Shown: positions 36,442 through 59,991 of the stretch, in pieces
How positions within the stretch are numbered: the stretch's first letter is position 1
Layout of the letters: the number at the start of each line of letters is the position of its first letter
Assembly (NCBI RefSeq): GCF_030015065.1
Contig: NZ_JAIVFN010000004.1
Span: 44,210 to 108,209 of the forward strand
Direction of reading: 5' to 3'
From: Xanthobacter autotrophicus
Lineage (GTDB): Bacteria; Pseudomonadota; Alphaproteobacteria; Rhizobiales; Xanthobacteraceae
DNA length: 64,000 bases
Position numbers and translations under genes: made by a program
Notes under the pieces: generated by a model
Seen by the model: only the letters and a program-made list of their open reading frames with translations
Databases searched by the model: none
What the model was told of the DNA's origin: nothing

Positions 36442-36464
36442 GCGATGCTTCCCCGTCCATTCTG

Positions 36465-36665
36465 TCAGTCATTGGTGGCCCGCCATCGGGGCGGATCAGC
36501 AACCCATCGGTTGATGTCGGATTCCCGCCAGCCGGCACCATTTGTGCTGATCTTCAGTTGGGCGGGGAAAGTGCCCTCGGCGATCTTGCGGTAGATGGTG
36601 GAACGGGACAGGCCGGTGCGGGTAAGGACGGTCTTGAGGCGGATGATGCGCTCTGGTGTCTGCAT
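36465..36665 (-). CDS. alpA: AlpA-family helix-turn-helix regulator, 66 aa
   Basis: The product starts MQTPERIIRLKTVLTRTGLS, with the helix-turn-helix TVLTRTGLSRSTIYRKIAEGTFP and the IGTRAVGWRESDI-like tail (NGAGWRESDINRWV) of the P4 AlpA family. These small proteins activate integrase or excisionase functions on P4-like elements. It lies between the convergent integrase and the relaxase, which reads in the same direction 129 bases upstream. The ATG at 36665 fits the family's usual 65-70 residues; the longer upstream frame is not conserved-looking. Confidence 0.88.
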   Translation of the reverse strand: MQTPERIIRLKTVLTRTGLSRSTIYRKIAEGTFPAQLKISTNGAGWRESDINRWVADPPRWRATND

Positions 36666-36794
36666 GGCGGTGCTGCCTCCTGCTGGGCGCGCCTGATGGC
36701 GCCTGACCAAGACAAGGCATGGAGCCGCCGACGGGCAAGAGGAGGAACGACGCCGGTGTTTTCTGGCGGATCGGCGGCGGTACATCGGATGGGT

Positions 36795-39752: not shown

Positions 39753-39782
39753 CGCGATCCGAACATCACCACGGCGAAGTGC

Positions 39783-39812
39783 GCGTCGGAACGACGTATA
39801 AGCGCGCCCTCG
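39783..39812 (+). other. Origin of transfer (oriT), pTi/RSF1010-like nic region
   Basis: Between the divergent traA and traC genes, an inverted repeat CGTCG (39,784-39,788)/CGACG (39,792-39,796) is followed by TAAGCGCGCCCT (39,799-39,810). This closely matches the TAAGTGCGCCCT nic region of RSF1010 and the corresponding pTi sequence, and the reverse strand carries the pTi-like TTATACGTCG. By analogy the nick would fall near 39,806/39,807. Match by eye only. Confidence 0.75.
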
Positions 39813-39923
39813 AAACTATTTTCTCGGGACTGATCGCGCCGTTCCAGCCCGTCCCGTCACCCTTACAGCATTTCGGCAGGCGCTCAACTATCATCGCTCC
39901 ATCGACAGCTTATGGAGACGACG

Positions 39924-40250
39924 ATGCGCAAACCACGGGACTTCGATGCAGAACTGAAATCGCTGGAAGACAAGGCGCGAGACCTGAAAGCACGCAAGGT
40001 GCAGCAGCTTGGCGAACTGGTCATCTCGACCGGAGCCGACGCTCTTAGCGCCGAGGAACTGGCGGGCGCGCTGATCGTGCTGGCCGAAATCAAGGACGCC
40101 GGAAAGAGGGAGGCATGGGCGAAGCGTGGCGCCGCGTTCTTTCAGGGGCGGGCACGCCGAACTGCATCAGCGTCTGAGCTCGACGTTGGTGGCGCTCAAC
40201 CGCAACCGGGCGGCGCGCAACCGGCATCAGGGAGCGCGGGCGCGGAATGA
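39924..40250 (+). CDS. traC: Conjugal transfer protein TraC-like, 108 aa
   Basis: The protein is small and charged: MRKPRDFDAELKSLEDKARDLKARKVQQLGEL, a predicted helical/coiled N-terminus, then AEELAGALIVLAEIKD and KRGAAFFQ, resembling Ti-plasmid TraC (about 100 aa), an accessory factor of oriT processing. I chose the ATG at 39924 because GGAG lies 6 bases upstream; a second ATG at 39912 is possible. The Gly/Ala/Gln-rich tail (GGAQPQPGGAQP) is low-complexity. It overlaps nothing and is followed by traD after a single base. Confidence 0.8.
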   Translation: MRKPRDFDAELKSLEDKARDLKARKVQQLGELVISTGADALSAEELAGALIVLAEIKDAGKREAWAKRGAAFFQGRARRTASASELDVGGAQPQPGGAQPASGSAGAE

Positions 40251-40251
40251 T

Positions 40252-40470
40252 ATGCGCACCTGGCAGGTCGAGCGTCGCAGGCGGACGCGGCATCTGATCG
40301 AGCTTGGCGGCCTCGTGGTTAAGGCCGGGATCGTGGACCTGACCGGCGATGATCGCGCCATGATCTACGGCGCACTGCTCTGGATGGCCGACAAGCTCCG
40401 AAGCGAAGAGCGCGACAAGGCGCTGGCGCTGTGGGCTGCGAAGGGAAAGCAGGGGTTCGACGGTGGCTGA
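40252..40470 (+). CDS. traD: Conjugal transfer protein TraD, 72 aa
   Basis: A 72-residue product starting MRTWQVERRRRTRHLIELGG, with LVVKAGIVDLTGDDRAMIYGALLWMADKL, matches the Ti-type TraD family (about 70 aa, function ancillary to the coupling protein). The ATG at 40252 follows the traC stop by one base; a longer upstream frame inside traC is rejected. In pTi the next gene would be traG, but here the following gene runs the opposite way and is defence-related, so the transfer operon is cut short after traD. Confidence 0.85.
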   Translation: MRTWQVERRRRTRHLIELGGLVVKAGIVDLTGDDRAMIYGALLWMADKLRSEERDKALALWAAKGKQGFDGG

Positions 40471-40486
40471 CGTGATTGTTCCTGTG

Positions 40487-41227
40487 TCACTCAGCAGTCT
40501 TTTCCTGCTGTCGCTTGATCTCATTCAACCGCTCGGCCTGCGGTTTCGTCTTTGCAAGGACGCGCCGAGTTGCGTCCACGTTCAGCCATCTTGGACCTGC
40601 GGTAATGCCCACCTGTTCCGCTTGCAAAAGTAGCGCCTGCTGTTCCTCGAAAGTTGACGAGCGCCGATATACGAGGTCGGCAGCTTGCGCGACAAGCTCG
40701 TCCAGAGAGGAAGAGTGTCCGCCGAGCGAATAAATATCTTCGGGCGTTACAGCGTCGATTTCCAGAACTACTTCAGATTGGCTATTTTTCCAGCGACCAG
40801 CCCCATCGCTATAGCCGTTGATCGCGTTCCTGTTCCGCTCTATCGCCTCAGTGAAGGCAGGATTCCGGTATAGCTTGGACAGGTTGACGATGACGCTGCA
40901 AGGTGGCGGGTGAAGGCAAAGGATCGTTCCCTGATAACCTTGACCTTCCGGCGGAACGCCGCCCTTGAAGGCTTTGGCTACCTCGATGGATGTGGTCCAC
41001 GAGGAAATCTTTTCGGACAATCTGTCCTCCCCAATGAGGTCCCAGACACCGCCCTTCGGCAAAGCGATCTGCCGGAAACAGCACAGCGCGCTGGAGCGAT
41101 ATTCTGGAGGAAGGCTTGCACAGGCAGCTTTCAGTGCAATGCCACGCTTGCGGTTCTGGCTGGCGTCGCCGCCACGCTGCCAATCACTGATAGCCTGCAA
41201 TAGCGGCAGTTCAAAAACGTAGCTCAT
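40487..41227 (-). CDS. Putative ADP-ribosyltransferase-like protein coupled to AbiEii, 246 aa
   Basis: I do not recognise a named family. An ART-like pattern can be read: Arg in CCFRQIALPKG, a SSWTTSIEVAKAFKGG segment like the Ser-Thr-Ser motif, and QSEVVLEIDAVTPEDIYSL like the final Glu strand. These are in the R-S-E order. The N-terminal 45 residues are helical. Its ATG overlaps the AbiEii stop (ATGA), so it is the third gene of the abiE operon. The start at 41227 (MSYVFELPLLQAI) is chosen for this coupling. It may be a second toxin or modifier; a simple hypothetical protein is the alternative. Confidence 0.6.
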   Translation of the reverse strand: MSYVFELPLLQAISDWQRGGDASQNRKRGIALKAACASLPPEYRSSALCCFRQIALPKGGVWDLIGEDRLSEKISSWTTSIEVAKAFKGGVPPEGQGYQGTILCLHPPPCSVIVNLSKLYRNPAFTEAIERNRNAINGYSDGAGRWKNSQSEVVLEIDAVTPEDIYSLGGHSSSLDELVAQAADLVYRRSSTFEEQQALLLQAEQVGITAGPRWLNVDATRRVLAKTKPQAERLNEIKRQQEKTAE

Positions 41228-42150
41228 GTGAACAGCACCTTTTCCAGCGCATCGGCCAGCTCGCGCCGTTTGGCATCGGGCAACTGGGCGAGGTTGCGCT
41301 GCTTCCACATGACGGCGGGCAGATGCTGGGCTTCCGGTATCCCGAGAAGTGCCCAATCCGGTTCGCCGCGTTTGAAGCCGGCAAGGAAGTGCCGATGGTC
41401 TTCCGGCATTTCGGCCACGATCGCGGCGATGATCGCTTCCCGCGCTGCATCAAGGTCCGCAAGCGCGACAGGCTCCTGAGTCATGCCGGCGAAGCCGCGC
41501 GCAAACTCCTCATCCAGCGGTTTGCGGGTCGGGGCGAGAACTTCGGCCATCGGACGGTTGTGACTGATGACGTAGACCAGAAAGGCGCGCCGCAACTCGT
41601 CGCCGACGCCCTCGTTTGCCAAGAGGCTGCGCACGTCGAAGAGATCGCGCGGGTGCTGGCGGTCGAAGGCCGCCACGATCTTGCCCGCGTAGAGGTCGGC
41701 GAATGACACGACCTGCATTTCGGCGAAGCCGAAGGCGTCTTCGACAACGGGCACCACGCTCATTACAACGGGATCATAGACCGCACCACGGAGCACTGGC
41801 GTCACCTCGATCTTGATCTGCACGCCGCTCGCCCGGACGATCAGCTTGGTGACGATATTCTCGTCGGCGGAACGTGAAGCATTGACGCGCGCAACAGGGA
41901 TCGCCCGCTCGATCCGTTCCTTGATCCTCATCATGGCGGCGTTGATTGCCGCGAGCGATGCGGCCCGATCTTCGACCGGCAGATAGGTCAGGTCGATGTC
42001 CACCGAGAGGCGCGGCATGTCGCGCACGAACAGGTTGATCGCGGTGCCGCCCTTGAGCGCGAAAGTCCGCTCCTCCGCTACGAAAGGAAGGACGCGAATG
42101 AGCAGGGCGACCTGCTGCCGATATGTGTCCAGGAAGGCCATGAACTTCAC
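41224..42150 (-). CDS. abiEii: AbiEii/AbiGii-family nucleotidyltransferase toxin, 308 aa
   Basis: The N-terminal nucleotidyltransferase has FALKGGTAINLFV and the acidic pair LSVDIDLTYL (near 40-58), then the KLIVRASGVQIKIEV strand and the LYAGKIVAAFDRQHPRDLFDV box, all AbiEii hallmarks. These type IV toxins transfer nucleotides (to tRNA, for relatives) and cause growth arrest on phage infection. Translation probably starts at GTG 42150, overlapping the AbiEi stop (GTGA); an internal ATG at 42141 is the alternative. It pairs with the upstream AbiEi antitoxin. Confidence 0.92.
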   Translation of the reverse strand: MKFMAFLDTYRQQVALLIRVLPFVAEERTFALKGGTAINLFVRDMPRLSVDIDLTYLPVEDRAASLAAINAAMMRIKERIERAIPVARVNASRSADENIVTKLIVRASGVQIKIEVTPVLRGAVYDPVVMSVVPVVEDAFGFAEMQVVSFADLYAGKIVAAFDRQHPRDLFDVRSLLANEGVGDELRRAFLVYVISHNRPMAEVLAPTRKPLDEEFARGFAGMTQEPVALADLDAAREAIIAAIVAEMPEDHRHFLAGFKRGEPDWALLGIPEAQHLPAVMWKQRNLAQLPDAKRRELADALEKVLFT

Positions 42151-42944
42151 GGATCTCCAAGATCGGACGGCACGGTGATGTTGTAGCGCGGATCGAGCTT
42201 CCCGCCTTTAGCGAGGACGCGCTTGCCCGAACCCAGATCGACGCGGGATACATCGAGCCGGGATCGCCACGCATGGCGGTGGCGGTCGGCGAAGTAGAGA
42301 AAAAGCCGCTTCACCTTCACGCTGGCGCAAGCCTCAAGTAGGGCTTGCAAACGGCGTGGGCTCAGATCGCTCAGCCCCTCCATCAAGGCGTCGGCCTGAT
42401 GAAAACTTTCATGCTCGGGCAGTTCGTCGAGCAATTCGAGAATGGCCCGCTCCTTGCCGGAATAGCGGACAGGTAAGGTCAGGCCGCCGGCGCTGACCAT
42501 GACCGGGTTTGACTCGGGCGGTGCGTCGGAGCCGCCGGGAAACAGCCGCACGCTGTTGTGCCAATGAAAGGTCACGTCGAGCGGCAGGTCCGCCAGCCAG
42601 GTCGGCGGCCGCTTCGGCCCGTAGAGGTGAACCTCGCGCACTACTGTCAAAAGGTAGTGGGCGTAACCCTGCTGTTCGAGCGCGGTACGCCCGCCGACGG
42701 TCAGCGGAAGGTCCAGAACCGTCTGGAGCGAGACGGCCACCTGCTGCCAGGTGAGTGGCGTGCGCGACCGGCGATAGACCCGCCGGGCCGGGCTATCGAG
42801 CCAGCCCGCGCGAACATACTGGCTGCGCAGCGCCGATGAATAGCCGTGGGCCTCCATCCAGGCGGCATCGGCCAGGAGCCCTTCCGGGAGCTCCTGCTGG
42901 AGTCGGTTTAGCTTACCGCCAGAACGCATATTCATGCTTGGCAT
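42147..42944 (-). CDS. abiEi: AbiEi-family antitoxin / transcriptional repressor, 265 aa
   Basis: The N-terminal winged helix reads GKLNRLQQELPEGLLADAAWMEAHGYSS, then VRAGWLDSPARRVYRR. It is followed by the AbiEi C-terminal domain with LYGPKRPPTWLADLP and LSDLSPRRLQALLEACASVKVKRLF. AbiEi neutralises AbiEii and represses the operon by binding upstream repeats. Start ATG 42944 is chosen, though 42935 and 42929 are also in frame and no strong ribosome-binding site separates them. The longer frame to 43031 is unlikely. The 284 bases before the next gene (to 43,228) hold the operon's control region but I see no clear operator. Confidence 0.9.
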   Translation of the reverse strand: MPSMNMRSGGKLNRLQQELPEGLLADAAWMEAHGYSSALRSQYVRAGWLDSPARRVYRRSRTPLTWQQVAVSLQTVLDLPLTVGGRTALEQQGYAHYLLTVVREVHLYGPKRPPTWLADLPLDVTFHWHNSVRLFPGGSDAPPESNPVMVSAGGLTLPVRYSGKERAILELLDELPEHESFHQADALMEGLSDLSPRRLQALLEACASVKVKRLFLYFADRHRHAWRSRLDVSRVDLGSGKRVLAKGGKLDPRYNITVPSDLGDP

Positions 42945-43228
42945 TTTTGTCGATTTGCAAACCGATGTCGAGTTCGTACTTTTCGCGATTCGCCAAGCCT
43001 CTCTTAGCGTTTCACGAATCCGACAAACCATCCCTCAAGATCGATGAGGTGGCCGCCTACATCGGACCATCCTTAAAACGCCGCTTTCAGAGGGGAATCT
43101 TCAACGTGATGCTGCGGCAGCCCCAGCCCAACCTGCGCGGCTTGCCCCAAGATGGGAAGCTACCGCTACCTTCCCTGATTTTCTCCGATCTTCTATAAAC
43201 TTCCTCAACCACGTGTCACGATGGGCGC

Positions 43229-43426
43229 ATGGACGACGAAATCCTGACGATCCGGGAAATGGCGGAACTTCTCAAGATCAATGAGAAGACCGCCTACAAG
43301 CTTGCCTCGGCAGGCAAGATTCCTGGCTTCAAGGTCGGCGGATCGTGGCGATTCCAGCGGCAGGAAATCGCAAACTGGATAAAGCGTAAGGTTGAGGAAC
43401 AGCAGGGTGGCAGCGGGGGCGCATGA
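43229..43426 (+). CDS. Excisionase-type MerR-like HTH regulator of the restriction operon, 65 aa
   Basis: The product begins LTIREMAELLKINEKTAYKL after a short lead and continues KIPGFKVGGSWRFQRQEIANWI, the HTH_17/excisionase-family DNA-binding fold. Because its stop overlaps the start of hsdR (ATGA), it is more likely a controller of restriction expression than an excisionase of the element. Position as first gene of an hsd operon is common for this family. Confidence 0.85.
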   Translation: MDDEILTIREMAELLKINEKTAYKLASAGKIPGFKVGGSWRFQRQEIANWIKRKVEEQQGGSGGA

Positions 43427-45795
43427 CAAACGAAGCCGACACCTGCCGAAAAATCGTTGTGCCCAAGCTGCAATCGGCGGGGTGGGATAACGAACCTCAT
43501 TCTATCGCCGAGCAGCGCACCATCACGGATGGCCGCGTCATTCCCGTAGGCAAGGGTTTCGTCCGCAAGCCGCCCAAGCGGGTCGACTACCTGCTGCGCT
43601 ACACGCGGGACTTCCCGCTTGCCGTAGTCGAGGCAAAGGCCAGTTACAAATCCGCGACTGATGCCGTGCAGCAGGCCCGCGACTATGCGGAAATCCTCGG
43701 GCTCAAATACGCCTACGCCACCAACGGCGCCGAGATCATCGAGATCGACTATTTCAAGGGGACGGAAACGCGCGTCGCCGACTTCCCTACGCCTGACGGC
43801 CTTTGGCGGCGCTATCAGGCGGGTAGCGGAATCGACACTCCCGAGCAGGTGGAGCACCTAATCGCTCCCTACAACACGGTCGGCGGCAAGCCGCCCCGGT
43901 ACTACCAGCAAATCGCCATCAACCGGACGGTCGAAGCGATCCTCGCCGGGAGGAAGCGCCTGCTTCTCACGATGGCGACGGGAACGGGCAAGACCATAGT
44001 TGCCTTCCAGATTTGCTGGAAGCTTTGGTCGAGCCGCTGGAACCGGACTGGGGAGTATCGCAAGCCGCGCATCCTGTTTCTCGCGGATCGCAACATCCTC
44101 ATCGACGATCCGAAGGACAAGACCTTCACCCCTTTCGGGGATGCTCGCCACAAGATCGAATCTGGCGAGATCGTCAAAAGCCGGGAAATGTATTTCGCCA
44201 TCTATCAGGCGCTTGCAGAGGACGAGCGCCGCGTAGGGCTTTTTCGCGACTATCCGCCGGACTTCTTCGACCTCATCATTGTCGATGAATGTCACCGGGG
44301 AAGCGCGCGGGATGACAGCTCATGGCGCGTCATCCTTGATCATTTCAATCCCGCTTACCAGCTTGGCATGACGGCCACGCCTCTGCGCGAGGACAACCGC
44401 GACACCTACCTCTATTTCGGCAATCCGATCTACGAATATAGCCTGCGGCAGGGCATCGACGATGGCTTTCTCGCGCCTTATCGTGTTCATCGCGTCGTCA
44501 CACAATGGGACGCGGCCGGATGGCGGCCGAGCAGAGATGAGGTTGACCGCTTCGGCCGGACGATCCCCGATGACGAGTACCAGACCAAGGACTTCGAGCG
44601 GACCATAGCCTTGCGTGCCCGGACGGAGGCCATCGCACGCCACCTGACCGACTTTCTCAAGAAGACCGACCGTTTCGCCAAGACCATCGTGTTCTGCGTC
44701 GATCAGGAACACGCCTCGGAAATGCGGCAGGCGCTGGTCAACCTCAATGCCGACCTTGTGGCGCAGTATCCCGACTATGTGGCGCGCGTCACCGCCGACG
44801 AGGGCGCCATCGGGCGCGGCCACCTGTCCAAATTCCAGGACCTCGAAACCAAAACGCCGGTTATCCTCACGTCGTCGCAGCTTCTGACGACCGGCGTCGA
44901 TGCGCCGACCTGCAAGAATGTCGTTCTGGCGCGCGTCGTTGGCTCCATGAGCGAGTTCAAGCAGATCATCGGGCGCGGGACGCGCCTGCGCGACGATTAC
45001 GGCAAGCTGTGGTTCAACATCCTCGACTACACCGGCTCGGCCACCCGCATGTTCGCCGACCCGGACTTCGACGGCGATCCGGCCCGGATCACGGAAGAAG
45101 AAGTGAACGACGACGGGGAAACCACCGCGACGACGGAAATCGTCCCCGAAGGGCAGGAGCCGGAACCCGCCCCGCCCGATGAAGGCGAACCCGGCGTGAT
45201 CGAACCGCCGACCGGCGAGCCGCGCAAATTCTATTTCGACGGCGGCCAGGTCGAAGTCGTGGCCCATCTGGTCCACGAGCTTGATCCGAACGGCAAGCAG
45301 CTTCGCGTCGTCAAGTACACCGACTACGCCGCCGAAAGCGTGCGGTCATTGGCTCCGACCTCCGCCGAGCTTCGCAGGCGGTGGGCGGACGCGGACCAGC
45401 GTAGCGAGATCATCGCCGCCCTGGCCGAGCGCGGGATCGACTTCGACGTGCTGGCCGAACAGACCGGCCAGACCGATGCCGACCCCTTCGACCTGCTTTG
45501 CCATCTGGCCTTCAACGCGCCGCTTCGCACAAGGCGCGAGCGGGCGCAGCGCCTCAAGGCCGAGCGCAAGGATTATTTCGAGAAGTTCTCCCCCGAGGCG
45601 CGTCAGGTGCTCGACGAGCTTCTGGAAAAATACGCGGAGCACGGCGACGCGCAGTTTGTCTTGCCGGACGTGCTCAAGGTTCCGCCCATCTCAACTCACG
45701 GCCAGCCCGCCGAAATCATCAAGCTGTTCGGTGGCCCCGATGAGCTTCGCCGGGCCGTGACCGACCTGCAAGGACTGCTCTATGGCACGAACTAA
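43423..45795 (+). CDS. hsdR: Type I restriction endonuclease subunit R (HsdR), EcoEI-like, 790 aa
   Basis: The N-terminal nuclease has VDYLLRY and LAVVEAKASY (near 60-75; the D and E-x-K motif), then the helicase with Walker A TMATGTGKTIVAF (near 183), IIVDECHRG (near 286), MTATPLREDN and IGRGTRLRDDYGK (motif VI). The C-terminus matches the EcoEI_R_C domain (PISTHGQPAEIIKLFGGPD near the end). It is the DNA-translocating, cutting subunit. The length is normal for this subtype. It overlaps the HTH gene upstream and hsdM downstream by 14 bases. Confidence 0.94.
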   Translation: MTNEADTCRKIVVPKLQSAGWDNEPHSIAEQRTITDGRVIPVGKGFVRKPPKRVDYLLRYTRDFPLAVVEAKASYKSATDAVQQARDYAEILGLKYAYATNGAEIIEIDYFKGTETRVADFPTPDGLWRRYQAGSGIDTPEQVEHLIAPYNTVGGKPPRYYQQIAINRTVEAILAGRKRLLLTMATGTGKTIVAFQICWKLWSSRWNRTGEYRKPRILFLADRNILIDDPKDKTFTPFGDARHKIESGEIVKSREMYFAIYQALAEDERRVGLFRDYPPDFFDLIIVDECHRGSARDDSSWRVILDHFNPAYQLGMTATPLREDNRDTYLYFGNPIYEYSLRQGIDDGFLAPYRVHRVVTQWDAAGWRPSRDEVDRFGRTIPDDEYQTKDFERTIALRARTEAIARHLTDFLKKTDRFAKTIVFCVDQEHASEMRQALVNLNADLVAQYPDYVARVTADEGAIGRGHLSKFQDLETKTPVILTSSQLLTTGVDAPTCKNVVLARVVGSMSEFKQIIGRGTRLRDDYGKLWFNILDYTGSATRMFADPDFDGDPARITEEEVNDDGETTATTEIVPEGQEPEPAPPDEGEPGVIEPPTGEPRKFYFDGGQVEVVAHLVHELDPNGKQLRVVKYTDYAAESVRSLAPTSAELRRRWADADQRSEIIAALAERGIDFDVLAEQTGQTDADPFDLLCHLAFNAPLRTRRERAQRLKAERKDYFEKFSPEARQVLDELLEKYAEHGDAQFVLPDVLKVPPISTHGQPAEIIKLFGGPDELRRAVTDLQGLLYGTN

Positions 45796-47935
45796 GAAAA
45801 AGAACGGCGCTGACGCCGCACCGATGACAACCTCCCAGATGCTCGGGAGTTTGCTGAACTCCGCGCGCAAAATCATGCGCAAGGACAAGGGCTTGAACGG
45901 CGACCTCGACCGTCTGCCTCTGCTGACATGGATCATGTTCCTTAAATTCCTCGACGACCTTGAGCAGCAGCGTGAGGAGGAAACCGCGCTATCCGGCAAG
46001 AAGTTCAAGGCCGCCATTGAGGCCCCGTATCGCTGGCGCGACTGGGCCGCCAATCCGCAGGGCATCACGGGCGACGAGCTTCTGGCCTTCATCAACAGCG
46101 AAGAGGCCGTGCGCGCAGATGGAGCGAAAGGCCCCGGCCTGTTCGCTTATCTGCGCTCTCTCTCAAGCTCCAACGGCGACAACCGCCGCGACGTGATCGC
46201 CACCGTGTTCAAGGGTGTCGATAACCGCATGAAGAGCGGTTATCTGCTGCGCGACATTATCAACAAGGTAGGCGGGATTCATTTCACGTCGTCGGACGAG
46301 TTGCACACCCTCGGCGCGCTCTACGAATCCATGCTCCGCGAAATGCGCGATGCGGCGGGCGATTCCGGCGAGTTCTACACGCCGCGCGCCGTCGTCCGCT
46401 TCATGGTGGAAGTCACCGATCCTCGCCTCGGCGAGACTGTCCTCGATCCGGCCAGCGGCACGGGCGGGTTTCTGGTGGAGGCGTACAACCATCTTGAGAA
46501 GCAGGTGAAGACCGTCGCCGACCGCAAGCGCCTGCAAAACGACACCATCGCCGGCTGCGAACCCAAATCCCTGCCTTATCTGCTCTGCCAGATGAACCTG
46601 CTGCTGCACGGGCTGGACGCGCCGCAGATCGACCCCGGCAACGCCCTGCGCTTCAAGCTCTCCGAGATCGGCGAGAAAGAGCGTGTTGATGTGATCCTCA
46701 CCAACCCGCCCTTCGGGGGTGAGGAAGAGAAGGGCATCCAGGGCAATTTCCCAGAAGACCGCCAGACGGCGGAAACGGCACTGCTGTTCCTCCAGCTCAT
46801 CATGCGCAAGCTCAAGCGACAGCCGACTTCCGCCGGTCGCCCGGCGCGGGCTGCCGTGGTCGTGCCGCATGGCAGCCTTTCATCCCCAGGTGTTGCCAAG
46901 CGCATTCGCGAAACGCTGCTTGGCGATTTCAATATCACTGCGATAGTGCGCCTGCCTCATAATGTTTTTGCCCCATACACTGACATACAATCGAACGTCA
47001 TATTTTTTGAGCGCGGCGAACCAACGCAATCAATCCTCTACTGCGAACCGTCCCTTCCGCTCGGCTACTCGCTCAGCAAGACCAAGCCCTTGCTTTACGA
47101 ATGGATAGAGCCGCTCAAGACGCTCATAGCGTCGAGGCAGGAAACAGATACATCTTGGCTTGTTCGGCGGGACGACCTCGACGAAAATCTCAATCTCGAC
47201 ATCAAAAACCCCCGCCGAAAACTCAATTCTTTGGCGGACCGGGGAAACCTTGAAACCCTCGCTGCGCAAATGCGCTCGTATGCCGACGAGGCCGATGCCA
47301 TCAAAGCCGAACTGGCGCAGGTCACGGAATTGATAGGACAATCGCCGTGGGAATTGCTCGACAGCCACACTTATGAATCGGACGAGCGGATCGGTGAGGA
47401 CTATTCACCCGAAATGCCGCTCTTGGGCGTCTCTGCCGAGGAAGGGATTACCAATCCGAAGACTGCTATCGGCAAGTCGCCTGAACGATACAAGGTGCTG
47501 CGGACGCATTACCTTGCCTACAACCCCATGCGTATCAATATTGGGTCTATCGGCGTTGTCCGAGACGATACGCAGCAAGGCATCACAAGCCCTGATTACG
47601 TCGTCTTTTACTGTGGGCCAGACCTATTGCCTGAATATGTATATCACTATTTGAGAAGTGAGGCGGGTCGTCACGAAATAAATCTGAAAACAAAGGGATC
47701 AGTGCGGTTCAGATTGTATTTTGAACAGCTATCCAAGATTAAAATACCCGTGCCAAAAAACATTGAGACTCAGCAGCGGTTTGTAAATGCCTGTAACAGG
47801 CTTGAAGACCTGAAGAAGATGCTTAATGCCGCCGCTTCGTCGGCGACAGATTGTCTTAACGCGGCCACACGCTCCAGCTTTCTCCTTGAAGGCGGCAAGC
47901 CTTCAAACACCTCAACGGGGAGCAGGGCGGCATGA
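45782..47935 (+). CDS. hsdM: Type I methyltransferase HsdM fused to a half HsdS specificity domain, 717 aa
   Basis: An HsdM N-domain (about 15-165) is followed by a methylase core with ASGTGGFLVEAYNHL (near 222) and catalytic NPPFGG (near 309), both intact. From about residue 510 a second unit begins: LADRGNLETLAAQM coiled segment, then one target-recognition domain with KVLRTHYLAYNPMRI and IKIPVPKNIETQQRFV plus a helical spacer. A single recognition domain means it probably dimerises to read a symmetric bipartite site. The recognition part (47.35-47.85 kb) is more A+T-rich than the methylase part. No separate hsdS follows; the next gene overlaps by ATGA. Confidence 0.9.
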   Translation: MARTKKKNGADAAPMTTSQMLGSLLNSARKIMRKDKGLNGDLDRLPLLTWIMFLKFLDDLEQQREEETALSGKKFKAAIEAPYRWRDWAANPQGITGDELLAFINSEEAVRADGAKGPGLFAYLRSLSSSNGDNRRDVIATVFKGVDNRMKSGYLLRDIINKVGGIHFTSSDELHTLGALYESMLREMRDAAGDSGEFYTPRAVVRFMVEVTDPRLGETVLDPASGTGGFLVEAYNHLEKQVKTVADRKRLQNDTIAGCEPKSLPYLLCQMNLLLHGLDAPQIDPGNALRFKLSEIGEKERVDVILTNPPFGGEEEKGIQGNFPEDRQTAETALLFLQLIMRKLKRQPTSAGRPARAAVVVPHGSLSSPGVAKRIRETLLGDFNITAIVRLPHNVFAPYTDIQSNVIFFERGEPTQSILYCEPSLPLGYSLSKTKPLLYEWIEPLKTLIASRQETDTSWLVRRDDLDENLNLDIKNPRRKLNSLADRGNLETLAAQMRSYADEADAIKAELAQVTELIGQSPWELLDSHTYESDERIGEDYSPEMPLLGVSAEEGITNPKTAIGKSPERYKVLRTHYLAYNPMRINIGSIGVVRDDTQQGITSPDYVVFYCGPDLLPEYVYHYLRSEAGRHEINLKTKGSVRFRLYFEQLSKIKIPVPKNIETQQRFVNACNRLEDLKKMLNAAASSATDCLNAATRSSFLLEGGKPSNTSTGSRAA

Positions 47936-50550
47936 GCGTCGCGACCACGCCATCCGCGCCCCTGACCGAAAAGGCCGCCCTCGCGGACCTCGTGACGTGG
48001 GCAGAGAAGCGCCCCGCGTGGCAGAGAGACGCCCTTCGGCGCTTGGTCACAGGTGAAACGCTCGACGATCAGGTGATTGTGGAACTTACGGAGCTTTGCC
48101 TTGATCCGGCGCGCACCCATACGCCGATTGCACAATCGCATATTGTGGCTGAAACCAGCGCCGCAGAGCCGATTTCCCTCGTTTCGATCAAAAATCCAAC
48201 CGCCATCAACGCGCTTGCCAGCCAGCAGGAGCTGTCCTTTGAGCCTGCCGGGCTGACGGTGATTTACGGCGACAACGGTTCGGGAAAGTCCGGCTATGTC
48301 CGCGTCCTGAAGCACGCATGTCGGTCGCGGGACGAGAAGTTCGCGATCCACAGGGATTTGGAAGACAAGACCGACACGCCGCAATCTGCAGAGATATGTT
48401 TCACGCGGGGTGCGAACACCGACCAATTCAATTGGACGCCCGACGGCGAGCCGCACGGCGACCTGCCATCGGTCAGCATCTTCGACTCCCGAAGCGCAAG
48501 CATCCATGTCGAAAGCACCAACGAGGTAGCCTATATCCCCCGGCCAATGCGGTTGCTGGAGGCGCTGGCGGATGCTTCCGACCGCATTAAAACGGCGCTC
48601 GACGGCAAGATCGCAACGCTCAAGAGCCAGGTTCCGCTTGCGATTTCAAACCCCTCGCTGAGCAGGGAAACGGCTGCCGGCAGCTACGTCTTCGGGTTGA
48701 GCGCGAAATCCAACATCCCGCAGCTTGATAAACTCGCCGCCTTCAGCAATCAGGAAACCGGCCGCCTCTCCACGCTGGAAACCGACTTCACTCAAGACCC
48801 CAAGCGCGCTGTGGCGCGGCTTGATAACCAGCGCGGCGAAGTGGAGCGCATCCGGACGACCCTTCAAACCCTAATTGGCGCGACGAGCGCGGCGGCGTTC
48901 GTGGAAATCAATACACTACGAAAGACCCACGGCGATGCCGTGGAAGCCGCGTCGTTAGCATCGCAACAGCTATTCAGCGCATCGCCGTTGCCCGAGGTAG
49001 GCCAAGCCGCCTGGCAAAAACTGTGGGAGGCCGCCCGCACCTATGCGGACACCGTGGCCTATCCCGGCAAGACATTCCCTTCGCGCGAACCGGATACGCT
49101 TTGCGTGCTTTGTCAGCAGCCCCTCGGAGCTGACGCAATGGTGCGCCAGCAGACATTCGAGTCGTTTGTAAAAAGCTCGACGAAGGCTGATGAAGCGACG
49201 GCGCGCGCGAAGCTGGATGCTGCGCTCACGCAGTTGAAAGGGCAGATGCTGCGCCATGGCGATGTGCTGAAATCCGGCAAATTCCTCGCCACCGAGATCG
49301 GCGATGCGGCGCTTGCCCAGCAAGTCCGCCGGGCCTTTGTCGTGGTGCTTTGGCGGCTTCGGGCAATGGTCAGGGCATACGGCGAGCCCAGGCCGCTTGG
49401 CGCTGATCCGCTCCAGGCACTTACGGCGCTCGCAGCCGATCTCAAAACCCGTGCCGCGCAGCTTTCCGCCGATACGCAGAGCGACGACTACAAGAAACTG
49501 AAATCCGAATACCTTGAACTCAAGGACCGTGCCGCCCTTGCGCCGCTGCTCCCGGACATCAAGGCACATATCGCGCGCCTCAAGGACATCGAGTCAATCA
49601 ACACCGCGCTCAAGGCCACCGCCAAAAAGCCGATCACCGATAAGAACAAAGAACTCTCGGATCGCATGGTGACGGACGCGCTACGCGGTCGGTTTGCGCG
49701 CGAGATCGGAAAACTGAAACTGGCCAGAATGCCGGTCGAGCTTCGCAAGGAGAAAGACCGGCAGGCGGTGTCGTATTTTCGTGTTGCGTTGGTGGAGAAT
49801 CCTAGCGCCAAGGTCGGCGAGATCTTCAGCGAAGGCGAGCACCGCTGCGTCGCGCTCGCCGCGTTCCTCGCCGAGCTGGTCACGGCACAGCGTTATTCCG
49901 GCATCGTTTTCGACGATCCAATGTCATCGCTCGACCACATCCACAGGGGCGCGGTTGCGTCGCGGCTGGTGGAGGAAGCGGAACACCGCCAGGTCGTCGT
50001 ATTCACGCATGACCTCGTGTTCCTGTACGAACTTCGCCGCGAAGCGGAAAAGGCAAACCGGCCAATAGCGTTTCGCAATGTCCGTCGGCAGCAGGACAAG
50101 CCCGGCTACATTGAAAACGAGTTGCCGGACAAGGCGAAATCCGGACTTGAGATGTGCAACGCCCTGCGGTCATCTCTCAAAGCAGCAAAACCCGGCTTTG
50201 ACAAGCTGACGGATACGCAACGCACCATCTTCCGCAAAGGCACTATTGGTCAGTTGCGCGATGCCTGGGAACAGGCAATCTCCGACTATATCCGGCCCGT
50301 CCTTGAACGGTTCGACAACAAGGTCAAGCCGACCTCGATGTTCAAGCTCGGCATTCTCACAGAGGACGATGTGAAGCACGTGATGGCGGCCCAATCGAGG
50401 CTGTCCGAAGACCTTCATTCGTCAGCACAGGCGTTGAATCCCGAAGCCGTTTCGCTTGATGAACTGCTTAATGAGGTCAAGGCGCTAGAAGACTGGATTC
50501 AGTCCATACGTGACCGCCAAAAGAATGCGGTGAAGCCTGTGCTGAGCTAG
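47932..50550 (+). CDS. RloC-like zinc-hook ABC ATPase linked to the restriction operon, 872 aa
   Basis: Walker A is IYGDNGSGKSGYVRV (near 111). A long coiled middle holds a CVLC zinc-hook motif (near 390). The C-terminus has the ABC signature FSEGEHRCVALAAF (near 633), Walker B IVFDDPMSSLDH (near 658) and the H-loop FTHDLVFLYEL. This Rad50-like layout fits the PrrC/RloC group, which are anticodon nucleases activated when phages disable type I restriction; hsd linkage supports that. The last 150 residues, where the nuclease site should be, do not show a motif I can name, so nuclease activity is inferred. The start ATGA overlaps hsdM. Confidence 0.8.
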   Translation: MSVATTPSAPLTEKAALADLVTWAEKRPAWQRDALRRLVTGETLDDQVIVELTELCLDPARTHTPIAQSHIVAETSAAEPISLVSIKNPTAINALASQQELSFEPAGLTVIYGDNGSGKSGYVRVLKHACRSRDEKFAIHRDLEDKTDTPQSAEICFTRGANTDQFNWTPDGEPHGDLPSVSIFDSRSASIHVESTNEVAYIPRPMRLLEALADASDRIKTALDGKIATLKSQVPLAISNPSLSRETAAGSYVFGLSAKSNIPQLDKLAAFSNQETGRLSTLETDFTQDPKRAVARLDNQRGEVERIRTTLQTLIGATSAAAFVEINTLRKTHGDAVEAASLASQQLFSASPLPEVGQAAWQKLWEAARTYADTVAYPGKTFPSREPDTLCVLCQQPLGADAMVRQQTFESFVKSSTKADEATARAKLDAALTQLKGQMLRHGDVLKSGKFLATEIGDAALAQQVRRAFVVVLWRLRAMVRAYGEPRPLGADPLQALTALAADLKTRAAQLSADTQSDDYKKLKSEYLELKDRAALAPLLPDIKAHIARLKDIESINTALKATAKKPITDKNKELSDRMVTDALRGRFAREIGKLKLARMPVELRKEKDRQAVSYFRVALVENPSAKVGEIFSEGEHRCVALAAFLAELVTAQRYSGIVFDDPMSSLDHIHRGAVASRLVEEAEHRQVVVFTHDLVFLYELRREAEKANRPIAFRNVRRQQDKPGYIENELPDKAKSGLEMCNALRSSLKAAKPGFDKLTDTQRTIFRKGTIGQLRDAWEQAISDYIRPVLERFDNKVKPTSMFKLGILTEDDVKHVMAAQSRLSEDLHSSAQALNPEAVSLDELLNEVKALEDWIQSIRDRQKNAVKPVLS

Positions 50551-50620
50551 GACGCCGCCTAATTAGATGCCGTGCTTTCGAGCATTCTTGGCAAGGCGTT
50601 CAAAGGAGATTTGTGACGAC

Positions 50621-51115
50621 ATGGCAGACGACAAGAAGAATGCTAATCCCGAGCCGCCGGCGCCTGAGTCAGTTGCGGCGCACCCGGCATGGTTCCGGCT
50701 CGTCGATCAGTTAAACTGGTATGATCGCAAGAGCCAGCACGCCCAAGGGTGGTATAAACGCTTGAAAATCGCACAGTTCGCGTCTGCGGCACTGATTCCA
50801 GCAACGAGTCTGTTGCCTGCGGAGTACGCCAAATGGGCCGCATCAGCTTTCGGCGTCTTGATTGCCGTTCTGGAAGCTGTTCAGCAGATGAATCAGTATT
50901 CGACTCTTTGGTTCAGCTACAGGGCAACGGCAGAGCGTCTCAAGCACGAAAAATACCTCTTCCTTTCTGCCGCAGGCCCCTACAAGGGCTTAGCCGAACC
51001 CGAGCGGCTAGTTGCGTTGGCTGAAAGGGTCGAAGAGCACGTCTCGACCGAACACGCCAACTGGTTCAATGAAACCCGCCGCGCCGCCACGGTGCAGAAG
51101 TCGGAGGGCGCGTGA
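50621..51115 (+). CDS. DUF4231/SLATT-type two-helix membrane protein, 164 aa
   Basis: The protein has a soluble N-terminus with WFRLVDQLNWYDRKSQHAQGWYKRLK, two hydrophobic helices near residues 55-95 (FASAALIPATSLLP and AASAFGVLIAVLEA), and a soluble C-terminal helix with WFSYRATAERLKHEKYLFL. This is the DUF4231 pattern of the SLATT superfamily, proposed pore-forming effectors of nucleotide-signal defence systems. ATG 50621 was chosen over an upstream frame because the lysine-rich MADDKKN start follows an AAGGAG site. Its stop overlaps the next start (TGATG), making it the first gene of the TIR/deazaguanine operon. Confidence 0.82.
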   Translation: MADDKKNANPEPPAPESVAAHPAWFRLVDQLNWYDRKSQHAQGWYKRLKIAQFASAALIPATSLLPAEYAKWAASAFGVLIAVLEAVQQMNQYSTLWFSYRATAERLKHEKYLFLSAAGPYKGLAEPERLVALAERVEEHVSTEHANWFNETRRAATVQKSEGA

Positions 51116-52098
51116 TGCCTGTCGCGCGCCCCACTGAGCTGGCCATCGGAGCACGGTCGTTGCCGTTGCCCGTGTACTTCCCATCCATTTCTTCGGTGAA
51201 GACGGCGCTACGCCCGCTGGATTATTTACAGTTGCTATCGTCTCTGGGCGGGCTGAACGGCCAGTTTCTGGTATCGGCCTTCGATCTCGCAGGCGTCGAT
51301 CAGCCGCAGTCGGCCCAACAGGCACTAAGTGCTGCTCGTCAGGCGGGCATCATCACGTTGATGGATTCCGGCAACTATGAAAGTTTCTGGAAGGACGCGC
51401 AGGCAGATTGGAAGCAAGCAGACTTTCACAAGGTTCTGGCCGATTTCCCTTGCGATCTGGCCTTCGGCTTCGATGAGCAACAGCCACCAGCCAACGCGGA
51501 CGATCACGTTGCCTTGGTCGCCGAACGCTGGCAAGCGGATCAAGCCGCTGCGGGTTGCTGCCAAATCATTCCCATCGTCCACGCCCCGGCCGGTGAATTG
51601 CCGGCGCTGTGCGCGGCTGTCGCCGCCAAGACTGGCGTCACGATGCTGGCGATTCCAGAACGCAGGTTGGGCGACGGCGTTCTGGAGCGTGCCCGTGTCG
51701 TAAAGTCCATTCGGACGGCCTTGAATGAACTCGGGCGCTACGTCATTTTGCACCTGCTGGGCACTGGCAACCCCATTTCCATCGCCCTTTACTCGGCGAT
51801 GGGTGCCGACAGTTTCGACGGGTTGGAGTGGTGCCAGACGGTAGTCGATCATGAATCTGGCCTGCTTTATCATCTTTCGCAGGCCGATTTCTTTGCCGGA
51901 CAGACCGCGTGGGGTGATGACGACAAGCTGTCGTTTCAAGCGCGCGCGTTGGCCCATAATCTGGAATTCTTCTCCGATTGGATGAGAAGACTGCGCGACG
52001 CGGTGAGCCAGGATCGCTTGCCGGAATTCTGCCGATCCAATCTGCCTTCTCGCGCCCATCGCCACGTTGCCGATGTTGCCGGCTGGAGTCAGCCATGA
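51115..52098 (+). CDS. TGT-like (Cap10-like) guanine transglycosylase homologue, 327 aa
   Basis: Two TGT-type active-site segments are recognisable: ITLMDSGNYESFW (like DSGGFQ; about 80-92) and LLGTGNPISIALYSAMGADSFDG (like GxGxP ... GxDxFDC; about 208-230). The CxCxxC zinc motif of true tRNA-guanine transglycosylases is missing, and the chain is about 50 residues shorter, so tRNA modification is unlikely. Together with the neighbouring glycosylase and QueC-like genes it matches the Cap10 of type IV CBASS, where it cooperates with Cap9 in attaching a deazaguanine base to a protein. Start ATG 51115 overlaps the previous stop. Confidence 0.75.
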   Translation: MPVARPTELAIGARSLPLPVYFPSISSVKTALRPLDYLQLLSSLGGLNGQFLVSAFDLAGVDQPQSAQQALSAARQAGIITLMDSGNYESFWKDAQADWKQADFHKVLADFPCDLAFGFDEQQPPANADDHVALVAERWQADQAAAGCCQIIPIVHAPAGELPALCAAVAAKTGVTMLAIPERRLGDGVLERARVVKSIRTALNELGRYVILHLLGTGNPISIALYSAMGADSFDGLEWCQTVVDHESGLLYHLSQADFFAGQTAWGDDDKLSFQARALAHNLEFFSDWMRRLRDAVSQDRLPEFCRSNLPSRAHRHVADVAGWSQP

Positions 52099-52811
52099 CC
52101 GTGGACATCATCAACCAGACCATACGCGCGATGTGTCTTGAGGTCGAGACACATGCATCTGCGGCGCAGAACTGGCAGCAGATGGCGGAAGAAGAATTTC
52201 TGTACGAAGCGGCGATCTGCATTTTCGGCAGCCAGATGGTTTTCGAGATGGCGGTAGCAACGGCGGATCGGCTACGTGAAAAGAAGTTGCTCCAGCCTGC
52301 ACCGCGCGGACGAAGCGTCCAGGTTATTGAACGAAAGGTTGTTGCGGCTCTATCCGATCCACTGCCTGTTCCTGCGCGCAACGGGACGCAACGATGGGTT
52401 CGGCCACGCTTCAAGAACCGACTTGCGTCCTTGCTGGCCAAGACCATCGTTGAAATTTATGGGCAATCCCAAACGATCCGTGGATTTTTATTCGATGCGC
52501 GGAATGCGAGGGAGGCCCGCGAGACCCTGATGCACCACGTTTGGGGCTTTGGCCCTAAACAGGCCAGCCTCTTTCTACGCCGTGTTGGCTACTGCGCCGA
52601 CCTAGCCGTTCTGGATGTCCATGTGTTGGACTATCTGGAACTGGCGCGCGGCCTGTCGCTCTCGCCCAGCAAGTTGGGGCGCCTCTCGCTCTATGAGGAA
52701 ATCGAGGACACATTTCGGGAGATTTCTGCTGAATTCGGCCATTCGATGGGTTGCGTCGATTTGGCAACCTGGCTCACGATGCGCGTAGCCAAGAAGGAAG
52801 CTTTCCTATGA
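52095..52811 (+). CDS. HhH-GPD DNA glycosylase/lyase of OGG type (Cap11-like), 238 aa
   Basis: The helix-hairpin-helix and catalytic region reads VWGFGPKQASLFLRRVG followed by LAVLDVHVLDYLELA (about 145-180). The lysine of GPKQAS and the aspartate of LDVHV correspond to the Ogg1 Lys/Asp pair, so it should be a bifunctional glycosylase/lyase. The N-terminus is helical. Housekeeping OGG in alphaproteobacteria is not found in such an operon; Cap11 of type IV CBASS is this type. Start (ATGA) and stop (ATGA) both overlap neighbours. Confidence 0.82.
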   Translation: MTVDIINQTIRAMCLEVETHASAAQNWQQMAEEEFLYEAAICIFGSQMVFEMAVATADRLREKKLLQPAPRGRSVQVIERKVVAALSDPLPVPARNGTQRWVRPRFKNRLASLLAKTIVEIYGQSQTIRGFLFDARNAREARETLMHHVWGFGPKQASLFLRRVGYCADLAVLDVHVLDYLELARGLSLSPSKLGRLSLYEEIEDTFREISAEFGHSMGCVDLATWLTMRVAKKEAFL

Positions 52812-53401
52812 GCTTCGTGAACCTGGTTTCCGGTGGCCTTGATTCGACGCTGGTCAGCGTGATGGCGAAGGAAGAAGGTATAGAGCAATTCCCGCTGTTC
52901 GTTGACTACGGTCAACGGGCAGCCAGCAGGGAATGGGAAACTTGTAAGCTTGTCCACGATGCCTTGGGCCTTCCGGCGCCGACGAGGATGGATTTATCGG
53001 GTTTCGGGCGCGTCATCGCATCTGGCCTGACCCGTCAAGACCTCGATGTTAAAGCCGATGCGTTCACGCCCGGCCGCAACCTGATGTTCTTGCTGATGGG
53101 CAGCGCGTATGCCTATCAGCAAGGCGCATCATCGGTGACGATTGGCCTGCTGGCGGAGGAATTCAGTCTGTTCCCCGACCAGAAACGGCAATTTGTGGCT
53201 CAGGCCGAAGCCACCATCTCCGCAGCAATGGGGCAGCAGATCAAGGTGCTCACGCCATTGATCGAGTTCAGCAAAGCTGATGTGGTCAGGCTGGCGCAGG
53301 CCAAGGGCATCACGGGCACCTACTCGTGCCATACCGGCAATTCAGAACCTTGCGGGCGGTGCATCGCCTGCTTGGAGTTTCAATTCGACAAGGGGAAATG
53401 A
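52808..53401 (+). CDS. QueC-like (Cap9-like) 7-deazaguanine ligase homologue, 197 aa
   Basis: The PP-loop LVSGGLDSTLVSV opens the protein (about 5-17), a PGRNLMFLLMGSAYAYQQGA box lies near 95-115, and the zinc site is SCHTGNSEPCGRCIAC (about 175-190), as in QueC. It is shorter than QueC (about 220-230 aa) and no QueD, QueE or QueF is nearby. QueC makes preQ0 from CDG using ATP; its Cap9 relative instead uses CDG to modify an N-terminal glycine of the CD-NTase in type IV CBASS. Here the next gene encodes a protein starting Met-Gly-Gly-Gly. Confidence 0.82.
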   Translation: MSFVNLVSGGLDSTLVSVMAKEEGIEQFPLFVDYGQRAASREWETCKLVHDALGLPAPTRMDLSGFGRVIASGLTRQDLDVKADAFTPGRNLMFLLMGSAYAYQQGASSVTIGLLAEEFSLFPDQKRQFVAQAEATISAAMGQQIKVLTPLIEFSKADVVRLAQAKGITGTYSCHTGNSEPCGRCIACLEFQFDKGK

Positions 53402-53402
53402 C

Positions 53403-53903
53403 ATGGGTGGAGGCTCGGGCGGCGGTCTTTCTAGCTATGACATCAAGCGCCTTGAAGAACAGGCAAAGCGGAAGCTATCTGAGGCGAAAGGTGACGCCAG
53501 CAGGCACGTTTTCATTAGCTTCAACCATGAAGATTTAGACGAAGTGAACCTGCTTCGTGGTCAGGCGAAGAATGACAAGGTCGATTTGCAGTTCGACGAC
53601 CATTCCGTCAAGGAGCCGTTCGATAGCGCCAACGCCGACTACATCAAGCGCCAAATCCGCGACAAGATCGACCGCTGCTCGGTAACGGTGGTGTATCTCT
53701 CCGATAAAGCGGCCTCCAGCAAATGGGTGAACTGGGAAATCGAGGAGAGCATCAAGCGCGGCAAGGGCGTCATTGGCGTCTACAAGGGAGACAAGTCCCC
53801 GACCAATGTCCCGCCAGCGTTCCAGCAGAACGGCTGCAAGTCTGTGAAGTGGGAGCACGCTGCGCTGATGAAGGCCATCGAGGATGCGAGCACGAAGCGA
53901 TAG
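53403..53903 (+). CDS. ThsB-like TIR-domain protein with poly-glycine N-terminus, 166 aa
   Basis: The TIR domain (DUF1863/MTH538-like) spans about 35-160: RHVFISFNHEDLDEV, KVDLQFDDHSVKEPFDS, CSVTVVYLSDKAASSKWVNWEIEESIKRGKGVIGV (read here in pieces), with the glutamate of WVNWEIEES as the likely catalytic residue. This is the ThsB type that makes cyclic-ADP-ribose signals in Thoeris. The N-terminus MGGGSGGGLSSYDIKR is an unstructured glycine tail; after Met removal it exposes glycine. AAGGGG lies 10 bases before ATG 53403. It ends the operon. Confidence 0.85.
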   Translation: MGGGSGGGLSSYDIKRLEEQAKRKLSEAKGDASRHVFISFNHEDLDEVNLLRGQAKNDKVDLQFDDHSVKEPFDSANADYIKRQIRDKIDRCSVTVVYLSDKAASSKWVNWEIEESIKRGKGVIGVYKGDKSPTNVPPAFQQNGCKSVKWEHAALMKAIEDASTKR

Positions 53904-54090
53904 CCGGTGGGCGTTCTTTCTGGAGTGGTATCCGGTGGCGCTGCCGCAGCGGGCTGGGTGAGCGCCTCCGCCATCCTCCGAAGCTCAAGCTCTTTTAGTC
54001 TGCATTCTCGCGACGCTCGTTTATGATGTAGAATGCGCTTATGGCGGGATGACTGCTGTAGAGAATCCGCGAATCCAGCGGCCTTACCCT

Positions 54091-54120
54091 GGTGGTATCG
54101 CAGTTGGTATCGACATTGGT
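54091..54120 (+). promoter_or_regulatory. TGGTATCG-type direct repeats at the right end, candidate arm-type sites
   Basis: GGTGGTATCGCAG, TTGGTATCGACA and TTGGT lie in tandem about 50-75 bases inside the right attachment copy. They resemble the TTGGTACCGATG/TTGGTATGG repeats beside the integrase at the left end. This pairing supports a role as integrase or excisionase binding sites. Bases 53,904-54,090 hold no gene. Confidence 0.5.
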
Positions 54121-54166
54121 CATGGGCGGAAAGCTCAATAACTACAACACCAACTCAAACCCATTG

Positions 54167-54184
54167 ACCATCGAGTGGGAATGA
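54167..54184 (+). repeat. Right attachment site (attR-like copy of the guaA 3' end)
   Basis: ACCATCGAGTGGGAATGA again encodes T-I-E-W-E-stop. It matches the left copy at 16 of 18 positions and is preceded by non-guaA sequence. It marks the change from element DNA to chromosomal DNA: defence genes stop about 260 bases before and housekeeping genes begin about 370 bases after. Confidence 0.72.
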
Positions 54185-54556
54185 TTCAGCCCCATCCGAA
54201 CGCAGCCGATTTTACGCCAGAGCGTGACGCGGAAGATCGCGACGATCCTTCTCTTCCCGCCCCGGCATGCGGGAGGGAGCGAGCGAGCGAGAAGATCGGG
54301 GAGGGCGTTGCCTGAAGGCAACGCGGTTGCGTCGCCCGGGGTGACGGCCGACTGGGCCATCCACGCTTTTCCGTAGAACTTATCATTCTGATGCCACATA
54401 CGAATGTGGTGGAAACCGTTGACATATGTGGCGACCACGGCCACATGCGGCCCCTCCAGATCGCTCCGGTACTCCTGAGGCCCGGAAAGGCTCGCCGGCG
54501 CGCGCATCTTGCGTTCGGCCGGAGCACATCCGGTCCCGGATTTAAGGGCGGAGCGC
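54185..54556. other. Non-coding chromosomal gap after the attachment site
   Basis: No gene is supported. A perfect palindrome GCGTTGCCT-GA-AGGCAACGC (54,305-54,324) is the strongest structure and may be a bidirectional terminator or repeat element. The rest is G+C-rich and has only short overlapping frames on both strands without family features. Confidence 0.5.
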
Positions 54557-56659: not shown

Positions 56660-56811
56660 GATCAGCTACGATGCAAGCTGATCGGCCCGTGCTCCTTAGA
56701 GCGCGATCCGAGCAAATTGGATCAATTTGCTCGGTGAATCGCCCTCTAAATGCAAGAAAGAGAACGCGTTCTCCGATCAGCTTGCGATGCAAGCAGATCG
56801 GCGCGTGCTCT
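56660..56811. repeat. Interspersed palindromic repeat pair
   Basis: Two copies of a GATCAGCTTGCGATGCAAGC-type unit (56,660-56,691 and 56,775-56,811) flank a perfect 12-bp palindrome CCGAGCAAATTG-GAT-CAATTTGCTCGG (56,708-56,734) and GAGAACGCGTTCTC (56,760-56,773). A third copy is at 59,820-59,850. Such mosaic REP-like units are scattered in intergenic regions of alphaproteobacterial chromosomes and are not seen in the mobile elements here. Confidence 0.72.
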
Positions 56812-59746: not shown

Positions 59747-59819
59747 GCAGATCCGTCGTGGGCGGACCCGCCCCCGGGCGTCCTCGCCCTCCAGCTTGAT
59801 GCCAGAGAGCGCGTTATCC

Positions 59820-59850
59820 GATCAGCTTGCGATGCAGGCTGATCGGCGCG
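59820..59850. repeat. Third copy of the interspersed palindromic repeat
   Basis: GATCAGCTTGCGATGCAGGC and the following CTGATCGGCGCG match the units at 56,660-56,811. It sits in the 245-base gap between the MBL gene and the hypothetical gene, in which I see nothing else. Confidence 0.7.
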
Positions 59851-59991
59851 CGCCTGACCGCGCGCTTCCCCCTCGCCGCGATGCGGGCCGCGCGTGCGGA
59901 TGCCTGCGCAGGGGTCCGGCTTGATCCCCAAGCACCCCCTTGCCCCACCCCTTCGGTTTTCGTGTGGCCGCAGACCTGTCAGGCCACCGCC

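Follow-up and report, generated by a model that had tools for sequence, protein, structure and literature searches.

A predicted antiviral operon of Xanthobacter autotrophicus joins QueC-, TGT- and OGG-like genes to a TIR gene with a glycine-rich N-terminal tail

In type IV cyclic oligonucleotide-based antiphage signalling systems (CBASS), Cap9 attaches 7-deazaguanine to the N-terminal glycine of the cGAS/DncV-like nucleotidyltransferase (CD-NTase) and Cap10 binds the resulting tag (PMC11996544, PMC13279940). The CD-NTase carries the motif MGGS, the QatB protein of the qat system MGTS (PMC13279940), and protein deazaguanylation, discovered in type IV CBASS, has been proposed for qat as well (PMC11996544, PMC13279940). 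The same two systems are those for which a 2023 review table lists QueC (PMC10952713), while a 2026 study of the QueC family covers QatC, Cap9 and other clusters (PMC13329287). A term search of the main text of the latter gave no TIR, SLATT or Cap10, and TIR is likewise absent from that of the qat study. Here we describe a five-gene operon on the plus strand of a 64,000 nt window, the whole stretch analysed, from contig NZ_JAIVFN010000004.1 of Xanthobacter autotrophicus (operon at 50621-53903 in window numbering), in which genes of the QueC and tRNA-guanine transglycosylase (TGT) type precede a TIR gene. That this gene set is not a described system, as the original prediction on this DNA had supposed, agrees with the open-licence literature, in which we found none; papers outside it could hold one. 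We think it probable that the operon belongs to a widespread TIR immune system, distinct from both CBASS and Thoeris, whose TIR enzyme receives a nucleobase at its N-terminus that a TGT-derived protein then reads.

The five genes are apparent from the list of open reading frames (ORFs) and their translations, and family matches agree with what had been described from the letters alone. The first encodes a SLATT/DUF4231 protein of 164 residues (50621-51115; DUF4231 6e-23, SLATT_1 5e-9), a predicted membrane effector that is hydrophobic in two stretches, around residues 48-66 and 69-91. It is followed by a TGT-like, Cap10-related protein of 327 residues (51115-52098; TGT 1e-7), the predicted binder of the tagged TIR tail, whose translation is missing the CxCxxC zinc motif, and by an OGG-type helix-hairpin-helix protein of 238 residues (52095-52811; Ogg-HhH 4e-21). 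The QueC-like enzyme (197 residues, 52808-53401; QueC 1e-42), with its ATP-binding loop SGGLDS at 52829-52846, is predicted to put 7-deazaguanine on the N-terminus of the last product, a ThsB-family TIR protein of 166 residues (53403-53903; ThsB_TIR 4.5e-24) with an N-terminal tail in front of the TIR domain (residues 34-166, 53502-53900). The SLATT and TGT-like genes overlap by one base (TGATG), the next two junctions are four-base overlaps (ATGA), and a single base separates the QueC-like and TIR genes. The start of the TGT-like gene is more likely the ATG at 51115 than the GTG at 51112, because most aligned homologues begin there.

This tight packing is no chance cluster, since the order TGT-OGG-QueC-TIR recurs in 41 of the 43 QueC-holding loci that were fetched, down to 37-40% TGT identity. 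In all we collected 47 loci, 42 from a scan of species genomes seeded with the TGT family, one viral and four fetched of 13 plasmid records; L102 was left out as a copy of L045, and L025, with an ORF spanning several genes and a split OGG that probably reflect assembly frameshifts, was left out of neighbourhood clustering. QueC is present in 43 of the 47. In all 43 the TIR gene lies directly behind it, so that the outcomes which the original prediction had set against itself, such as a TIR gene unlinked to the other four, were not found. By record titles the cassette occurs in about eleven phyla; some placements may be wrong because most records are metagenome bins. As the scan was seeded with the cassette TGT, it does not give the frequency of CD-NTases accompanied by other TGT-like proteins. 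Searches of phage and Escherichia coli DNA gave no match. The expected sites are well kept across the cassettes. The SGGxDS loop is present in 43 of 44 QueC sequences, and RN together with four cysteines in 41 of 41 aligned rows. The columns for Lys and Asp of the OGG-like protein, presumably its catalytic residues, hold in 35 of 36 rows each, with one gap. Glu112 of the TIR protein (codon 53736-53738, in WVNWE), the predicted NAD-cleaving glutamate, aligns with the YE of ThsB 6lhy, is invariant in two alignments and is Glu in 55 of 56 rows of another.

The TIR protein starts with MGGGSGGG (53403-53426), a predicted acceptor tail in which Gly2 would become the first residue after Met removal; the original prediction did not mention this start. 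The structural model shows a low-confidence tail (mean predicted local distance difference test score, pLDDT, of 51 over residues 1-10), then a helix, then the TIR fold. In a count over divergent loci, MGG opens 47 of the 48 TIRs encoded directly behind QueC, the single exception being MAG, as against 1 of 37 other TIR ORFs, and the contig of that one begins at the gene. The rows share descent and include a few repeats (among the 37, L109 and L119 overlap and L115 and L116 are near-identical), so these counts are not independent and a Fisher test on them yields no true probability; L020, L042, L043 and L044, with no QueC match, and L105-L108 and L120, places already counted, were left out. An earlier, narrower count gave MGG in none of 22 non-core TIR ORFs. 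Among the 120 closest TIR homologues 116 start with MGG and the rest with VGG, MCG, MNMGGG and MRS; the first glycines are kept even in TIRs of only about 46-50% identity, where the residues after them vary.

A start of this kind is also common on the CBASS side: among the 120 homologues of one type IV CD-NTase, MGG opens 101. These homologues were taken as sequences; the type IV CBASS neighbourhoods inspected were two (L061 and L068), and their CD-NTases start MGGSGGGFF and MGGGGGGGG. The CdnD chain in the solved Cap10-CdnD complex starts GGSGG. A profile made from TIR tails only matched the N-terminus of 115 of the 120 CD-NTase homologues (median 6.4, best 20.4 bits), while on shuffled sequences it gave 8 matches in 600, the best at 1.4 bits. 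Since the tail of the TIR is of the same kind as that of the CD-NTase partner, the TIR is likely the tagged protein.

TIR relatives free of the tail were also seen. On two viral contigs a related TIR lies beside a related SLATT (L103, 5989-7416; L104, 5998-6860), and these TIRs start at the TIR domain itself. Neither locus holds QueC, TGT or OGG, although L104 ends behind SLATT at the contig end; L103 has a second TIR behind SLATT. Among 349 Pseudomonadota genomes, the four TIRs beside QueC are all tailed and 12 other match places are untailed, one of them (L120) being the second TIR of a cassette genome; no QueC was found in the short loci of these 12 (about 1.5 kb each side). A simple reading is that the tagging module was added to a TIR-SLATT pair. 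In L115 and L116 a SLATT protein of 286 residues stands beside a second-clade TIR, and the short locus is free of the QueC cassette, which hints that SLATT-TIR modules also move alone.

The TGT-like protein, for its part, resembles Cap10 of type IV CBASS. With its AlphaFold 2 model (pLDDT 93) as query, Foldseek ranked Cap10 (9ntn_A) first by E-value, and VIA-align placed Cap10 first at Z 27.7, followed by a tRNA enzyme at Z 24.6. Cap10 was the sole PDB sequence found at 1e-3 by the TGT-like profile, and the PADLOC Cap10 model matched at the cassette in the own genome and in none of 14 control genomes. D85, D121 and D236, which by TGT numbering we take to be base-binding or nucleophile positions, are kept in 46, 46 and 44 of 47 rows. 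Scanning Pseudomonadota with the Cap10 model gave 5 matches in 398, all of them TIR cassettes, our own included. Scans of three other phyla, built around genomes in which the cassette was already known, gave 3 in 247, 1 in 247 and 2 in 296; four of these six are known cassette genomes, one is type IV CBASS (L068) and one is G510, where the match (L069) is weak (4.4e-7) and its contig carries no other gene of the cassette. In viruses, scans with Cap10 and with the type IV CD-NTase found no relative of either. On Rhizobiaceae plasmids (L046-L049) the annotation of the gene that covers the TGT match is a TIR protein of about 466 residues, and Pfam finds TIR and TGT together in the one plasmid protein examined and in L060, that is, an N-terminal TIR fused to a TGT-like part; the fusion genes lie at 5614-7014 in L046 and 6347-7744 in L060, and by annotation also in L047-L049. 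PfkB-like and TPR-S genes adjoin the Rhizobiaceae cassettes.

What the operon does not have is the enzyme that these genes accompany in CBASS. A type IV CD-NTase profile, which recovered both controls at 2e-151 or better, found none in the 51 cassette loci or in the window, and none of the five operon proteins matched a CD-NTase family. No match to SMODS (PF18144) was obtained in the own genome (99.89% complete), which is one of 34 cassette-bearing genomes or records, out of 40, that are free of it; the remaining six have a match, but away from the cassette locus, as judged for G005, G022 and W02 from coordinates or the length of the contig (in G023 its distance from the cassette was not measured). 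The absence of a CD-NTase claimed at the outset therefore extends from the operon to the window, the own genome and the 51 loci.

Taken together, we regard as probable an antiviral operon in which the QueC-like enzyme tags the first glycine of the TIR, the TGT-like protein binds the tag, the TIR signals and the SLATT protein opens. The host queuosine pathway would supply 7-carboxy-7-deazaguanine (CDG) as substrate. By analogy with type IV CBASS, the QueC-like enzyme would then likely join 7-deazaguanine to Gly2 of the TIR, and the TGT-like protein would read and bind it there. The activated TIR might produce an NAD-derived signal, as in Thoeris. Such a signal would likely open the SLATT membrane protein and halt the infected cell, in line with Thoeris and with the published proposal that SLATT proteins are nucleotide- or ADP-ribose-responsive membrane effectors (PMC7159879, PMC9503650). 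That the OGG-like protein removes a base, or else the tag, is a guess. A QueD-family gene is present in 33 of 36 hosts, the own genome included, and the own genome carries a separate host QueC. The cassette QueC profile matches a Cap9 at 7e-29; in the PDB it reaches Cap9 at 4e-12 and canonical QueC at 3e-22. A spacing of cysteines and of Q and E in the QueC-like enzyme was considered as a mark of Cap9 and discarded, since some host QueC-type proteins have the same spacing.

Several findings weigh against this mechanism. QueD also occurs in 9 of 14 control genomes and is thus common anyway. In a QueC tree built with 22 of the 43 cassette rows, the cassette enzymes form a clade apart from Cap9 (3 rows), on long branches. 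Against the TGT-like model, certain tRNA enzymes reach a TM-score over the query (0.70-0.71) that equals or exceeds that of Cap10 (0.68). The OGG-like protein, for which no match was found in two QueC-holding loci (L014 and L028; present in the other 41), bears no clear likeness to one CBASS Cap11 candidate, itself without a Pfam match (7 bits, E 0.0012). The likeness between the TIR and CD-NTase tails may be convergent, because the tail is short and glycine-rich; convergence on the requirement of one enzyme would fit the tagging reading equally. Finally, SLATT was not found in 8 of 46 loci, some of them cut by contig ends, and three SLATT-free loci (L021, L037 and L039) carry a TPR-S protein instead.

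These SLATT-free loci would suit a scheme in which the tagged TIR itself kills by direct NAD+ destruction, SLATT being an anchor or regulator, and NAD+-depleting TIR domains are indeed known in several defence systems (PMC10952713). We consider this possible but unlikely, given that 38 of 46 loci have SLATT (8 have TPR-S and 5 a PfkB-like gene) and that, within the clade of the window, it mostly stands directly before TGT, that TIR-SLATT genes exist without the cassette, and that the TIR belongs to the ThsB family, known for making signals.

Another point against the proposed mechanism concerns the nature of the tag. The canonical QueC motif YPDC at the nucleobase site reads FPDQ in the cassette enzymes, with P, D and Q in all 41 rows and F in 40. 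QatC, whose partner is similarly tailed, likewise departs at its base-binding residues, and the study describing it leaves its reaction open (PMC13279940). The attached group may therefore differ, and the QueC-like enzyme could modify the TIR glycine with something other than 7-deazaguanine. This seems to us a rather doubtful alternative, because the enzyme retains the aspartate of the PDC site and the three TGT-like aspartates, placed by TGT numbering, suit a ligand of the deazaguanine type.

Relatives of QueC and TGT function in pathways to queuosine or to deazaguanines in DNA, and OGG-type proteins work on nucleic-acid bases, so that QueC and TGT might instead produce or install a modified base of tRNA or DNA, the loss of which the TIR would sense. 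This is improbable for a TGT-like protein that is devoid of CxCxxC and by profile closest to the protein-binding Cap10, in a host that already has its own QueC, and it does not predict an MGG tail on the TIR linked to QueC. Least credible of all is that the tail, short as it is and counted in loci related by descent, is an ordinary flexible leader unrelated to QueC, when its first glycines outlast the residues behind them and QueC is absent from the loci of those relatives that were seen to be untailed.

The operon lies next to other defence-like genes. Directly upstream is an AAA ATPase assigned to PDC-S06, a PADLOC candidate family (47932-50550), preceded by a type I restriction HsdR (43423-45795) and by an HsdM with a specificity-like C-terminal part that matches specificity domains (45782-47935). 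An AbiEi-/AbiEii-like pair follows further upstream on the minus strand (41224-43031; PADLOC 318 and 418 bits), and an ORF overlapping it (40487-41356) matched no PADLOC model. Integrase-like and relaxase/TraA-like ORFs at 34900-39752, named from our reading of the ORFs, suggest an integrative element. The G+C content of 0.578 in the cassette and 0.617 over 34900-50620, compared with 0.639 before and 0.687 after the island, suits an acquired island. A repeat search gave no repeat framing it; a direct repeat of 70 bases, 81% identical (56739-56808 and 59784-59853), lies downstream. An Rfam search of 30000-60000 gave no match, and no promoter-like site was found in 50000-54200. At least one gene of three restriction-like clusters occurs near the cassette in 18 of 46 loci, so that cassette and restriction genes may travel together; in L003 these neighbours are HsdR and HsdM by Pfam, and the third cluster is probably HsdS.

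If the proposed tagging is correct, deazaguanylation would be a portable control module, with tagger, OGG-like protein and reader as its parts, that has been joined to signal makers of unrelated kinds, to CD-NTases in one lineage and to TIRs in a different one. In that case a TIR alarm would obey a form of control so far described for a nucleotide-cyclase alarm, and an acceptor tail of the same type on TIRs in about eleven phyla would make the tag a general switch across immune-enzyme folds. This raises a testable question, namely what effect a tag has that would work on a cyclase as well as on a TIR, for which the untailed TIR-SLATT genes provide a natural control.

In this context, it is useful to set the operon beside the described systems. 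With type IV CBASS it shares QueC-like and TGT-like genes, the latter of the Cap10 type, beside a signal-enzyme gene with an MGG start. L061 and L068 also have a two-transmembrane protein behind the signal-enzyme gene, as a shared layout; homology between the SLATT protein and these two was considered and dropped, as no similarity could be detected. In contrast to CBASS, a TIR occupies the place of the CD-NTase, the MGG(S) tail is borne by this TIR, and the order is TGT-OGG-QueC-TIR rather than Cap9-Cap10-CD-NTase. The type IV CBASS ancillary genes named in the original prediction thus stand for the QueC-like and Cap10-like proteins, less so for the OGG-like protein, with no clear likeness to Cap11, and the TIR does replace the CD-NTase as MGG-tailed neighbour of the tagging enzyme, its signal making being a guess. 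With Thoeris the operon shares a ThsB-family TIR with the aligned glutamate (Pfam, PADLOC ThsB models and PDB ThsB matches), but it adds QueC, TGT and OGG and its TIR bears the tail; ThsA was not found among the 5 cassette and 9 neighbouring proteins, to which that search was limited. The qatABCD system likewise pairs a QueC-family enzyme with a neighbour whose N-terminus bears a glycine motif (QatB, MGTS; PMC13279940), yet the QatC model gives 10.7 bits on the cassette, and no QatA or QatD model matched among the 9 neighbours tested. The viral TIR-SLATT pairs (L103 and L104), of a kind noted in PMC9503650, have TIR and SLATT proteins related to those of the operon and are missing the tail, QueC, TGT and OGG. 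The 'CBASS-IV/Thoeris hybrid' first proposed is therefore fair as an analogy, though by defining features the locus is a member of neither, and the best reading is that the operon lies outside CBASS and Thoeris as defined.

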